Shown here piece after piece: positions 640-5,672 of a stretch of DNA of 64,000 nt. The notes beneath the pieces were generated by a model that did not search any database, was not told the DNA's origin, and saw only the letters and a program-made list of their open reading frames with translations. The stretch is from contig WRIE01000005.1 of the NCBI GenBank assembly GCA_009782875.1, positions 1 to 64,000 on the forward strand. The letters are read 5' to 3'. Every line of letters starts with the position of its first letter. Position 1 is the stretch's first letter. The DNA is from Eubacteriaceae bacterium. GTDB lineage: Bacteria > Bacillota > Clostridia > Eubacteriales > Anaerofustaceae. Both the position numbers and the translations under genes were made by a program.

Positions 640-709
640 GGGCAAAATTTTATTGTTATCCTTAAAAGATTTAATTAGCTCTATTAAATCTGGCTTATAT
701 ATTTTGCCC
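640..709 (+). promoter_or_regulatory. Nested hairpin in the leader of the E1-like operon
   Basis: GGGCAAAAT (640-648) pairs with ATTTTGCCC (701-709), and inside it AGATTTAAT (667-675) pairs with ATTAAATCT (683-691). The outer right arm overlaps the -35 of the proximal promoter candidate at 704. It fits no riboswitch class I can name. It could be a leader structure or simply AT-rich palindromes. Confidence 0.35.
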
Positions 710-732
710 ATCGCCAAATTCCGTGCTATAAT
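704..732 (+). promoter_or_regulatory. Candidate sigma-A promoter, proximal
   Basis: TTGCCC (704-709) and TATAAT (727-732) with 17-bp spacing. It is the best-spaced candidate close to the E1alpha-like gene and would give a leader of about 155 nt. Confidence 0.5.
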
Positions 733-893: not shown

Positions 894-1856
894 ATGAGCA
901 TTGATAACCAAGCGGCAGTACAAATTTTTTACAGAATGATGAGGGCCCGGCTCTTTGAGCAGGAAGTTTACCGGATTAAGGAGGCTGGCATAGCCTCAGG
1001 GCCATTGTTTTTGTCAATTGGCCAAGAAGCTACTATCGCTGCAGTCATGGCGTTGAATCCCCAAGACATTGTGCTTGCCTCCCACAGGAACTTCCATGTC
1101 ATGATAGGCGCAGAAGTCGGCATAGAGAAAATCTTCAAAGAGTTGATTGGCGACCCTGACGGGGTCTGCGGTGGAAAGGGAGGCTGCTTCTCCTCAGCGG
1201 ACAACTCTGTCAACTTTTACGGGTCATCAGCTTTGCCCCAAAACCAATTTGGCAAAGCAGTGGGCATAGCGCTTTCAATCAAGCTCCAATCGAAGAGCAA
1301 CAATGTGGCGTGTTTTGCAGGGGACGGGGCAAGCGCAGACGGCGCTTTCTTTGAAGCCCTCAACGCCGCATGCCTGAACAAGCTGCCATTAGTATTTTTT
1401 ATTGAGAACAACTGTTATGCAGGCTCAAACAAGACATCAGAAATTATCAACATCAAAGACATTGCCAACCGCTCTTTCTCTTTTGACATACCAGGCATTA
1501 TAACTGACGGCAACGACGCAGTCGCAGTGTATGAAGCAATGCAACAGGCATTGGATTACGCCAAATCCAACAGCTCCCCGGTTATAGTCGAGTCAAAGAC
1601 CTATAGGCTTTCAGGTTATACCACTGACGACAATAACTCATATAGGGACGACTCGGAGATCAAGGATTGGCTGGAATACGACTCAATTGATATTCTATCC
1701 CGTTACCTCGTTCAAAACGGGATCGGCATTGCAGATGATTTGATGGTGATGCGAGAAAAAATTGAGTCTGAGATGCGCATGCAAGCAGACCAGATTATCG
1801 CATATAGCTCTAGAAAACGTAATAATTTTAATTTCATGGACGGAGTTGTCAGGTAG
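894..1856 (+). CDS. Pyruvate/acetoin dehydrogenase E1 alpha-like protein, active-site His residues replaced
   Basis: 320 aa with the fold of the thiamine-diphosphate (ThDP) E1 alpha subunit of 2-oxoacid dehydrogenase complexes. The Mg-ThDP motif is present: GDG at residues 143-145, then a run ending in ENN at 171-173. SIGQEA (41-46) and TYR (236-238) also match the family. However, the KGGSMH loop reads KGGCFS (95-100) and the YRxxGHS loop reads YRLSGYT (237-243), so both conserved active-site His positions appear lost. I chose the ATG at 894 because GGAGG lies at 881-885; an upstream in-frame TTG at 852 has no such site. The E1 beta-like gene follows after 2 bp, so the genes are surely cotranscribed. 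Fold assignment is firm; whether the protein still binds ThDP or acts as an enzyme is open. Confidence 0.85.
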   Translation: MSIDNQAAVQIFYRMMRARLFEQEVYRIKEAGIASGPLFLSIGQEATIAAVMALNPQDIVLASHRNFHVMIGAEVGIEKIFKELIGDPDGVCGGKGGCFSSADNSVNFYGSSALPQNQFGKAVGIALSIKLQSKSNNVACFAGDGASADGAFFEALNAACLNKLPLVFFIENNCYAGSNKTSEIINIKDIANRSFSFDIPGIITDGNDAVAVYEAMQQALDYAKSNSSPVIVESKTYRLSGYTTDDNNSYRDDSEIKDWLEYDSIDILSRYLVQNGIGIADDLMVMREKIESEMRMQADQIIAYSSRKRNNFNFMDGVVR

Positions 1857-1858
1857 TT

Positions 1859-2800
1859 ATGGCAGTTAAAACATACAAACAAGCCATTGAGGAAGCAATT
1901 GCTGAAAGTATGGCTATTGACGGGGCAGTAGTAGTCTTGGGAGCCCGGGGGCTGGATTTCCCTGAAGTCTACCGCTCCAGGGTGTTGGATATGCCCATAG
2001 GCAGCAACATAGCCCCTTCCGCATCCCTTGGGCTTGCCATGACAGGGGCAAACCCGGTTTTGTTCCTGAAAGGGGAGCATATGCTCCGGTATTTGGATGT
2101 GATAGGCAACGAGATATCAGTCATAGAGTCCATGTACAACTCCCAATTTGACTCAGGCATGGTTATCATCCTGGATATCGGATATTTGCCCCAGACAGGG
2201 CCGCAGCTTTCCCAGTCTTTTGAGTCAGTTTTTCTGCAGTTCCCGGGATTGACGGTGGTCTATCCCTCAAACGCATCTGACGCGAAAGCCCTTTTGATGT
2301 CCTCAATCAGGCTTAAAAAGCCGGTGATTTTCTTGTTGAACAAGTCCTTGATGGATACTTCAAGCGACATTGCAGACAATCCCATCCCAGTCGGCAAGTC
2401 AAAAGTTGTGCTTGAAGGCAAGGACATTACGATCGTCGCCTATGGGGACATGGTCAATATGGCGCTACGCGCCTCAAGCTTGGCAGCTGAAAGCGGCCTC
2501 ATGTGCGAGGTCATCGACCTGATGACGATACACCCCATTGACATGGATCCTATTGTAGAGTCTATACAAAAGACTGGCAAAATAATGATAGTCCACGAAG
2601 CCCGCAAGACGGGGGGGATAGGCTCTGAGATCGCAGCCTTGATTGCGGAGAGCGAAGCTCTCTTTTTCCTCGACTCAAAAGTTATGAGGGTAACTAGCAA
2701 GGACGTAGACATCCCCTACAACAGAAATGACTATTTCAAAACCGTGCCAAATGAGGAAGACATCTTGAAGGCGATAATCCAGCTAAGCACAGGTGAATAA
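1859..2800 (+). CDS. Pyruvate/acetoin dehydrogenase E1 beta-like protein, catalytic Glu and His replaced
   Basis: 313 aa, with the transketolase pyrimidine-binding domain (about 1-180) followed by the C-terminal transketolase domain (about 190-310), as in E1 beta subunits. Family landmarks include RVLDMPI (41-47), FPGLTVVYPSNASDAK, and the C-terminal EVIDL and VHEARKTGGIGSE segments. The usual PISE motif, whose Glu activates the ThDP aminopyrimidine, reads PIGS (46-49), and the usual HSQS motif reads LSQS (117-120). The loss of both, alongside the alpha subunit changes, argues that the heterotetramer no longer performs the standard decarboxylation. It starts 2 bp after the alpha gene and ends 2 bp before the E2-like gene. 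The paralogous family is large, but E1 beta is the clear best match by eye. Confidence 0.85.
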   Translation: MAVKTYKQAIEEAIAESMAIDGAVVVLGARGLDFPEVYRSRVLDMPIGSNIAPSASLGLAMTGANPVLFLKGEHMLRYLDVIGNEISVIESMYNSQFDSGMVIILDIGYLPQTGPQLSQSFESVFLQFPGLTVVYPSNASDAKALLMSSIRLKKPVIFLLNKSLMDTSSDIADNPIPVGKSKVVLEGKDITIVAYGDMVNMALRASSLAAESGLMCEVIDLMTIHPIDMDPIVESIQKTGKIMIVHEARKTGGIGSEIAALIAESEALFFLDSKVMRVTSKDVDIPYNRNDYFKTVPNEEDILKAIIQLSTGE

Positions 2801-2802
2801 AA

Positions 2803-4968
2803 ATGATTAAAAATATGGCTTCCCCTGCCGCCCGGAAGGTGGCGAGGGAAATTGGGCTCGATTTGGATTTGGTGGCTTCTGCTACTCCCGGTTCCTTAGT
2901 CCAGCTTGAGGACGTGTTAAAAACCGCCCAGGAGCAAGGCATCGATATTCAAAGCTACTTGAGCCGCCCAAAGCCTGAAACAGCAAAAGCACAAACTGAA
3001 ATCGATTCGATTGCGCAAATGCAAGCTGAAAAAGAAGCATCAGCTGCTTTTGCCATACAAACGAGCATACCAGTCCCAAATGTCACAAAACCCCAGCCTG
3101 CAATCATTCCAGCCCCAATCAACGTGATAAGGGAAACGCCCCCAGCCCCTCCAATCCAGCAGGAGAAAGATGACAAGCCTCTCTTTGATTATGACTATAT
3201 TGAGAATGTGAACTTGTTTGAGAGCATGCTGGATGAAGTAGAGCAAAAGTCAAAAGAAGAAGCCAATGTGAATCCCAATACTATCACAGAGCTCAAAGAC
3301 AAGATCGCCCGGGATGTGGTCAGTGACGAGGACTTTGAGCGCAATCTCTCTGTGATCATAGAAGACGAGCTAAGCGATATGGGTTCTTCCACCAGCGGGG
3401 ATGGCGAGGATAAGCCCAGCCAAGGAGACTCCATCAAATTGGGAGAAGATGGCTTTGGTTTCACCCAAAGCTCTGGAAAACCTGGGGAAGAACCAGAAGA
3501 AAATGATGGCGAAGACGAAGACGGGCAAATCGTTGACACTGTTTTTGTCGAAGCCGCCATCCAAGAGATGGACGACATTGTCGATGATAACGCGGAGTCT
3601 TTGGATATAATCCTGGATATTGCGCCTGATGACCTCCAAATCGATATAACAGAAGAAGTTGAAGGGCATAGCAGCGAGGACGCCATGGTTCTCAGTGATG
3701 ATGATATATTCGATATAATTGATGGCCAGCTTGAACAGGAAGCGCTTGGACAAGAGGCGTTGCCCGAAGAAGAGCCTGAAGAGGAAGCCAAGCCAGTCCT
3801 GGATTTTGGCAGCTTCAGGTTTGGCCGCTTTGATGAGACTATTGTAGGAAAACACACTGAAGATACAGAACCCCCTAAACCTGAAGATATAAATGCCCTG
3901 GATGATATTATCATGGACTCCATCATTGAAGATGAAGAAGATGGCGGGGAAGACGATGGGGAAGACGTGGAGGGGGCTGGAAATGAAGAAGAAACCGCAG
4001 CCGACGATGTAGTTGTGCCTGAAACCAAAGAAGAAGAGCCCGCAGGCAAAGATGATGCCCATGGGGATGGTTCCATCGCCCAAGATCAAGATAGCGGGCA
4101 GGGCAAGGCTGTGGAAGAGGGCGCAAACGGAAAGCCAGTTGCCCAAGCCCCTGCCCCAAGCAAGTTCTGGCATGACATCGCCACATTGCCGTTGCGCGAT
4201 GAGATTATCGCTGACCGGGACAAGTTCCAAGCAGCTGCCGAGCCACAGAATAGCGACGCCAGCGGGGATATCGAAGATAGCGAGGTTATCGATGCTGTTG
4301 TAGAAGAAACCCGCAGCGAAGTTTTTGAATACCCGTCCCAAAAGGCGCCAGTGCGCAATAAGGGGATGCAGAACTACACAGTCCTCAAGGATGAAAACAC
4401 CCAAGAGCCTCTGCCTCAATATAGCGGGCAAATAGCCGCCTTCGAGTATGACCCCGCAATGTTTGACTACGACACCCAAGTATCCGCAAAGCCTTTGATG
4501 GCAGCCAGGATCAAGGTTGAGGACAGCGCTGTGATAGATCTGTTGGCCCAATTTAAAATTGGCTACAGGATCGGCATTATCAAGACAATAATCAAAGCAT
4601 GCTCCTTTGCGCTTGATAAAATCTCCTTGCCTAATGCAAACACAATCGGTGTTGTGGATGCCCACGAAAACTTCGATGTGTATGTAGTTGATGATATCCA
4701 AAATTCGTCTATACAACAGATGATGTTTTCTTCAGTGGCAAATATCGACACGTCCAAGGTGCTCGTTTCCGTTTGGGATTTGATCTCATGCAGGCTTGAA
4801 AGCTTTTCTGCCTCAAACATAGACGGGATAAACATATTTGTCCACCATAACGACAGCGTTCTGCTATTAGAGCTGGCATCCCAAGAGAGGCTGCTCGATC
4901 CTTTCAAAGCCATCCAGTTCATGGAGACAGTAAGAGATTTCCTAGAGAGGCCTAACCGCTATCTATAA
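2803..4968 (+). CDS. E2-like scaffold: subunit-binding domain, long acidic linker, catalytically dead acyltransferase domain
   Basis: 721 aa, unusual architecture. Residues about 5-42 (ASPAARKVAREIGLDLDLV, then LEDVLK) resemble the peripheral subunit-binding domain of E2 proteins, though the usual GRI is not preserved. Residues about 110-500 form a very acidic, Glu/Asp/Gly-rich, probably disordered region. The C-terminal 190 residues resemble a shortened 2-oxoacid dehydrogenase acyltransferase domain: IIKACSFALDKISLPNA matches the FLIKAxALALKxxPxLNA region, and the end VRDFLERPNRYL matches the usual LxxLLExPxxLL. The acyltransferase signature DHRxxDG reads QERLLDP (694-700), so the catalytic His is Glu. 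No lipoyl domain or lipoylation DKA motif is seen. It is last in the operon with the E1-like pair. I infer a structural or binding role; the C-terminal match is by eye and only moderately secure. Confidence 0.65.
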   Translation: MIKNMASPAARKVAREIGLDLDLVASATPGSLVQLEDVLKTAQEQGIDIQSYLSRPKPETAKAQTEIDSIAQMQAEKEASAAFAIQTSIPVPNVTKPQPAIIPAPINVIRETPPAPPIQQEKDDKPLFDYDYIENVNLFESMLDEVEQKSKEEANVNPNTITELKDKIARDVVSDEDFERNLSVIIEDELSDMGSSTSGDGEDKPSQGDSIKLGEDGFGFTQSSGKPGEEPEENDGEDEDGQIVDTVFVEAAIQEMDDIVDDNAESLDIILDIAPDDLQIDITEEVEGHSSEDAMVLSDDDIFDIIDGQLEQEALGQEALPEEEPEEEAKPVLDFGSFRFGRFDETIVGKHTEDTEPPKPEDINALDDIIMDSIIEDEEDGGEDDGEDVEGAGNEEETAADDVVVPETKEEEPAGKDDAHGDGSIAQDQDSGQGKAVEEGANGKPVAQAPAPSKFWHDIATLPLRDEIIADRDKFQAAAEPQNSDASGDIEDSEVIDAVVEETRSEVFEYPSQKAPVRNKGMQNYTVLKDENTQEPLPQYSGQIAAFEYDPAMFDYDTQVSAKPLMAARIKVEDSAVIDLLAQFKIGYRIGIIKTIIKACSFALDKISLPNANTIGVVDAHENFDVYVVDDIQNSSIQQMMFSSVANIDTSKVLVSVWDLISCRLESFSASNIDGINIFVHHNDSVLLLELASQERLLDPFKAIQFMETVRDFLERPNRYL

Positions 4969-4982
4969 GGCAGTAAATTTGC

Positions 4983-5038
4983 AAATTCTATACAAGTAAA
5001 GCGCATTGCTTGCAGTGCGCTTTACTTGTATAGAATTT
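4983..5038. terminator. Perfect 23-bp inverted repeat after the E1/E2-like operon
   Basis: Arms 4983-5005 and 5016-5038 are exact complements around a 10-nt loop. It begins 14 bp after the stop of the E2-like gene. The T-tract is short (TTT near 5036), so termination is likely but not textbook. Confidence 0.7.
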
Positions 5039-5169: not shown

Positions 5170-5672
5170 CGGATTTTTGGCAATCAGGTAAGCGACCTGA
5201 CACCACTTAATAGTTTATGAAACCTTGCCTTCTTGTTTATTATCGGCAATCCAATAGCAAGCCTGGCTCAAATCGAAGGCATGAGTAGTTTAATAGGTTT
5301 TGCATTGAGCGACACAGCAAGCGACTATCTTGCAATCAACAATCTTCCAAATTAACATATTACGGCGACCAAATCAGCGATATAGCGAAGTTGTCGAAGA
5401 TAACGAACCTTAAGTTGGGCAAGGTTCTAGATATAACACCGCTTAGCGCATTGACAAACTAAGACTATTTAGGCTTGAGCGATAAATCGATAAGCGATCT
5501 GAAACCGCTTAGTGGAATGACAAACCTGACGGGTTTAAATTTGAGATGCAACGCGATAGACAATTTGGCTGCGCTTCACGGACTTGCGAAATTAAAAACA
5601 TTACATATATGGCAACGCTGTAGGCAATAGGGAAATTGCCGACTTCAAGGCTGCCGTCCGGAGGGTGAAGTA
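5170..5672 (+). pseudogene. Decayed internalin-like leucine-rich-repeat gene
   Basis: Reading the plus strand in shifting frames gives repeated LRR units of the internalin type: NQVSDLTPLNSL then NLAFL (from 5182), NPIASLAQIEGMSSL (from 5248), DQISDIAKLSKITNLKLG then DITPLSALTN (from about 5369), and SISDLKPLSGMTNLTGLNL (from about 5485), ending near 5672. Stop codons and frame changes interrupt it several times, for example TGA at 5218, so it cannot make a full protein. No signal peptide or start was found. It was probably a surface LRR protein. It lies between the E1-like operon terminator and pth. Confidence 0.75.

Follow-up and report, generated by a model that had tools for sequence, protein, structure and literature searches.

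A conserved PDH-like operon encoding an E2-like scaffold with neither lipoyl domain nor acyltransferase histidine

A three-gene operon encoding two proteins homologous to the E1 subunits of PDH (E1α' and E1β') and an E2-like scaffold is under strong purifying selection and is not decaying, the architecture of the complex having been kept under selection while its chemistry was dropped. The swinging lipoyl arm and the active-site His of E2 are textbook essentials of the PDH complex, and the scaffold has neither. The operon is best explained, with our confidence about evenly balanced, as encoding an E1-E2 assembly, lipoyl-independent and probably non-catalytic, in which binding of a diphosphate cofactor is retained and whose role is regulatory or structural.

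Results

The window, the first 64,000 nucleotides of contig 5 in a draft genome of 3.19 Mb (G000), contains three closely packed genes on the + strand encoding E1α', E1β' and the E2-like scaffold, followed by a hairpin, pth and mfd; all features of the window described below are on that strand. A promoter-like site, TTGCCC-17-TATAAT with TG preceding the second hexamer (704..732), scored 10/12 in a consensus scan, which by itself is no proof of function. The mechanical open reading frame of E1α' begins at TTG 852, and homologues begin at MxIDNQ, which places the start at ATG 894 and yields a protein of 320 aa (894..1856; Pfam E1_dh, 1e-51). E1β' (313 aa, 1859..2800) was recognised by Pfam Transket_pyr (6e-12) and Transketolase_C (6e-32). 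The scaffold is a protein of 721 aa with an ATG start (2803..4968). Directly 3' of the operon is a hairpin with a 26-bp stem (4983..5038; −44.9 kcal/mol including flanking pairs, z = −10) that is the probable 3' boundary of the operon. Disrupted reading frames resembling leucine-rich repeat fragments were seen at 5200-5650, between the operon and pth.

The N-terminal segment of the scaffold, originally described as resembling a subunit-binding region, proved to be a genuine PSBD (E1/E3-binding; residues 6-43, 2818..2931). Pfam E3_binding matched residues 6-26 (25.4 bits; cut-off 23.7), phmmer matched the solved PSBDs 1w4i and 1w4j, and the basic residues of the PSBD are kept. A custom PSBD profile gave 6e-16, although the profile itself included the scaffold sequence. 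E3_binding was the sole Pfam domain recognised in the scaffold; of the two profiles that the original prediction proposed to search, it scored above cut-off and the other, 2-oxoacid_dh, was not reported for the C-terminal domain even at E≤10. The predicted lack of a lipoylation motif was confirmed, the motif being absent from every scaffold and a lipoyl profile matching none of the 10 homologues tested. Residues 50-564 (2950..4494) form a linker of 515 aa, longer than the roughly 390 residues first estimated and acidic as claimed (D+E 27%, K+R 7%, net charge about −101).

The C-terminal domain (residues 565-721, 157 residues, 4495..4965) produced no match of its own in Pfam and NCBIfam searches, in which the matches were driven by the PSBD only, and when the whole scaffold was compared with the PDB by phmmer, PSBD matches were likewise the only ones returned. 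Comparison of profiles with hhalign, in which 10 homologues were aligned to 44 canonical E2 catalytic domains, yielded an end-to-end alignment of 152 columns with P=4e-4, the best value for the controls (unrelated families and column-shuffled profiles) being 0.013. In the same alignment QERLLDP (4882..4902) falls opposite DHRVLDG and FMETVRDFLERP falls opposite the last helix, and since it begins at template residue 25, the scaffold domain has no counterpart of roughly the first 24 core residues. The catalytic His of DHRxxDG is missing in all homologues. An HMM built from the homologous domains ranked E2 cores at the top among PDB sequences (best E=0.0034). AlphaFold models of the domain from the window (pLDDT 69.9 and pTM 0.71, from two input sequences only) and of the homologous domain from the sister genome G004 (pLDDT 62.6) were of moderate confidence, and for both, the top PDB folds by Foldseek were E2 cores. 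These lines are each weak to moderate, and they agree with one another and with the operon position that the C-terminal domain has a predicted E2 catalytic fold, as had been proposed, and the claimed position-by-position correspondence of QERLLDP and DHRxxDG is real.

E1α' and E1β' are homologous along their full length to the subunits of heterotetrameric PDH E1. In PDH E1, Glu59β serves in cofactor activation and His128β in transfer to lipoyl, and both residues were present in the canonical E1β sequences compared. His128β is lost from E1β' in 11/11 homologues and replaced by Leu117 in the window (2207..2209). Glu59β is lost in 6/11 with four different replacement residues, namely S in the window (Ser49, 2003..2005) and I, I, K, D and D in the others, and is retained in G001, G008, G012, G007 and G004. 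Glyoxylate carboligase functions without this Glu and, therefore, its loss is no proof of inactivity. The Mg-ThDP motif of E1α' (GDG...NN, 1320..1412) is intact in the window as judged by alignment with 31 canonical E1α sequences; among homologues the Asp is present in 10/11 and the second Asn in 11/11, and the second His of HRxH is missing in 11/11. Of the residues invariant in canonical proteins (for E1α' defined on 31 canonical relatives), E1α' retains 28/38, including GDG...NN, compared to 14/40 for E1β' (Fisher p=7e-4). Thus, the description of both E1 genes as pseudo-subunits held for E1β', which lost the catalytic residues; E1α' is not obviously a pseudo-subunit because the ThDP motif is intact. 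At four loci (L046, L047, L048 and L049) E1α' bears acidic C-terminal extensions of about 160-316 aa, which would put acidic disordered tails on two partners of the complex.

The homologous operon was found in 11/13 genomes of the family, and the search for the same three-gene order, suggested at the outset, recovered a conserved order in these 11 genomes. No operon was found in G005 and G011, both of which are incomplete assemblies. Outside the family, a search with the remnant HMM of 391 genomes of the class, drawn evenly from a larger group, gave no convincing match; four weak matches (E 0.004-0.008) were provisionally taken as chance or the ends of ordinary E2 proteins. In the E1β tree the 11 E1β' sequences form a single clade (SH-aLRT 98) separate from the normal E1β of the family. 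The PSBD and CAT remnant are kept in all homologues, the copy in G007 being truncated by the contig end, and the linker is about 220-515 aa long and acidic in 9/11.

Between the close genomes G008 and G012 the dN/dS was 0.017 for the E1α' core, 0.012 for E1β' and 0.051 for the scaffold (PSBD 0, linker 0.061, CAT remnant 0.042), with radC and ispD as controls at 0.039-0.045; these low values pertain to a lineage that keeps Glu59β, and for lineages without it there are protein identity and saturated pN/pS only. Synonymous sites are saturated within the subgroup of the window. The protein identity between G000 and G004 (WRIY01000025, Eubacteriaceae bacterium Nt197P3bin63, a MAG whose name hints at a termite-gut source) was 64% for E1α', compared to 55% for the normal E1α, 48% for pth and 51% for mfd.

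Almost all genomes bearing the operon have another, intact E1, mostly inside a normal PDH operon. In G000 the catalytic residues are intact in an E1 pair encoded by an operon on contig 82, which also encodes a 323-aa E2 that lacks a lipoyl domain and has the motif NHIHLNGQ, and a lipoyl protein of 437 aa (L013 3417-4730) that gave no E3 match; a stand-alone, complete lipoamide dehydrogenase (E3) is encoded on contig 40 (L110 2464-3843). G000 thus encodes a PDH that is a candidate for the working complex, in addition to which it carries the window operon. One of the two counter-cases named in the original prediction, an active E1 served by a lipoyl-E2 encoded elsewhere, does not hold: E1β' of the window is without Glu59β and His128β, and the E2 and lipoyl protein on contig 82 accompany an intact E1 of the same operon. 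The E3 part of the lipoyl protein in the normal PDH operon of G004 (L052 2078-3553) is badly degenerate.

Discussion

The His is lost in all homologues and the Glu in six, with the diphosphate-binding subunit conserved, which argues that the selected function is independent of the old reaction; judged from the sequences, it may need the ThDP cofactor or a similar ligand. Since the parts required for chemistry were lost and selection is nonetheless strong, the product is now probably a binding, regulatory or structural assembly. The operon would represent a second copy of a 2-oxoacid dehydrogenase complex, inherited vertically, in which acyl transfer was abandoned. An E1α'2β'2 tetramer would dock on the scaffold PSBD, the CAT remnant would oligomerise to form a hub, and the long, fast-evolving linkers would hold the E1' units spaced around it. 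Such an assembly would bind ThDP or a similar diphosphate and make no acetyl-CoA, the conserved function being that of a ligand-binding regulatory or structural complex for which the old catalysis is dispensable. The original suggestion of a non-enzymatic complex is therefore probably right as regards acyl transfer, the lipoyl domain, the catalytic His and the E1β' residues having been lost.

The scaffold resembles E2 (dihydrolipoyl acyltransferase) in the PSBD, the long linker, the CAT fold and the place after E1α and E1β, and differs from it by lacking a lipoyl domain and the His of DHRxxDG and by a shorter CAT domain without the N-terminal part. The E1' proteins are like heterotetrameric (α2β2) PDH E1 in that both subunits are homologous and α' has the ThDP motif, and are unlike it in the absence of His128β (0/11), the loss of Glu59β in 6/11 and the loss of the second His of HRxH in α'. 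A search of open-access text found no bacterial description of a non-lipoylated E1-E2-like operon under purifying selection, eukaryotic protein X being the closest known concept. The operon is a natural experiment for asking what the PDH architecture is worth apart from acetyl-CoA.

It is also conceivable, although unlikely, that E1' is still a lipoate-independent ThDP enzyme, for instance a carboligase such as an alternative DXP synthase, for which the E2-like protein is the scaffold. None of the family's genomes gave a dxs match above cut-off (TIGR00204), yet IspG is present in all and so is either DXR-I or DRL (type II DXR). E1α' is directly 3' of ispD in 7/11 genomes with gaps of ≤16 bases and one apparent overlap (in the three of these genes tested, ispD scored above its NCBIfam cut-off), and the same 7 genomes are exactly the DRL users and the other 4 have DXR-I, counts that ignore shared ancestry. 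E. coli aceE (PDH E1) mutants can supply DXP (PMC3424233), and the MEP pathway without Dxs has been reported for 181 species (PMC10663253). The ThDP motif is present in nearly all homologues and, given that Glu59β is kept in 5/11, some lineages could retain a lipoyl-independent ThDP reaction. Against this explanation, the remaining six, the window included, have S, I, K or D at the Glu59β position, and the ispD linkage is absent from the subgroup to which the window belongs. Furthermore, E1' is a two-subunit E1 and not a DXS family protein of about 620 aa, and it is unnecessary to explain the DXS gap since nearly every genome of the family has another intact E1. As a general answer to the missing DXS it was rejected, other families of the order having DXR without DXS and without such an operon. 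It is possible, as a hypothesis, that PDH-type E1 enzymes are DXP synthases in this order, perhaps including E1' where the Glu is kept. The ispD linkage combined with the family-wide lack of DXS is a concrete lead on how bacteria make DXP without DXS.

Protein X (E3BP) of eukaryotes also combines a PSBD with a CAT-like domain whose active His is missing, and by this parallel the scaffold could be an accessory of the normal PDH, the PSBD recruiting E1 or E3 and the CAT remnant joining E2, which we regard as rather unlikely. The basic residues retained in the PSBD accord with such a role, as does the presence of a normal PDH operon with E2 alongside the window-type operon in G000, G001, G003, G004 and G010 and of an E2 above cut-off in G008 and G012. 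However, G002, G006 and G009 carry the operon though no normal E2 was found next to the normal E1, the PF00198 matches in these genomes being stand-alone CAT-like proteins of ~290 aa. In addition, human protein X has a lipoyl domain and the scaffold does not, and the window system differs further in being bacterial and in having its own diverged E1 pair and no active E2 in the operon.

Doubtful, too, is the proposal that the complex is a dedicated part of a MEP pathway without DXS, in which it would act as a DXP synthase where Glu59β is present and as a ThDP-binding regulator or pathway scaffold where it is absent, as in the window. It is improbable that the complex self-assembles into a shell or cage surrounded by an acidic cloud, as was first envisaged. 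Canonical E2 cores assemble as 24- or 60-mers, or as trimers in some actinobacteria, and the C-terminal CAT fold and the acidic linkers of nine homologues are in keeping with a shell. The linkers of G003 and G010, however, are neutral or basic and helical-looking by sequence, and because acidic character is not universal an acidic shell is unsupported and the cloud is not an essential feature; moreover, the scaffold domain is short of the N-terminal part of the core, and neither cargo nor shell partner genes were seen nearby. Decay of a PDH operon into pseudogene remnants, suggested by the loss of the catalytic residues and lipoyl domain, is very improbable considering the intact open frames, the dN/dS of 0.01-0.06 (which contradicts decay for the G008/G012 lineage), the gene order conserved across genera and the better conservation of E1α' relative to the normal E1α.

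The E1β tree indicates that a similar loss occurred separately in two families of one order. In the other family, PDH-like E1-E1-E2-E3 operons with degenerate parts were found at L092, L093, L094, L097, L104, L106 and L107. In the E2-like proteins of these operons the lipoyl-like domain lacks the Lys, or a lipoyl match is missing altogether, and the CAT domain is degenerate; several of the E3-like proteins are without the Cys pair, and His128β is lost in L092, L093, L094, L097 and L107. Unlike the window operon, those of L092, L093 and L107 have a separate origin on the E1β tree and keep an E3-like gene and two PSBDs.

Across the order (67 genomes) dxs was found in 22, DXR-I in 41, DRL in 30 and IspG in 66, and many genomes, among them the entire family of the window, use the MEP pathway without DXS. 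DRL (Pfam PF21135) is encoded within 2-3 kb of a PDH-type E1β gene in six genomes of three families (L054 1947-5510 and L056 4955-8368; also G014, G032, G037 and G041). The DRL-adjacent E1 pair of G002 and G009, which is without E2 or E3 alongside, is a candidate DXP synthase. PF00198 gave zero matches in G034, G039 and G048, and in other genomes of the order lone CAT-like proteins of about 280-305 aa without a PSBD were found (L098-L103 and L105).
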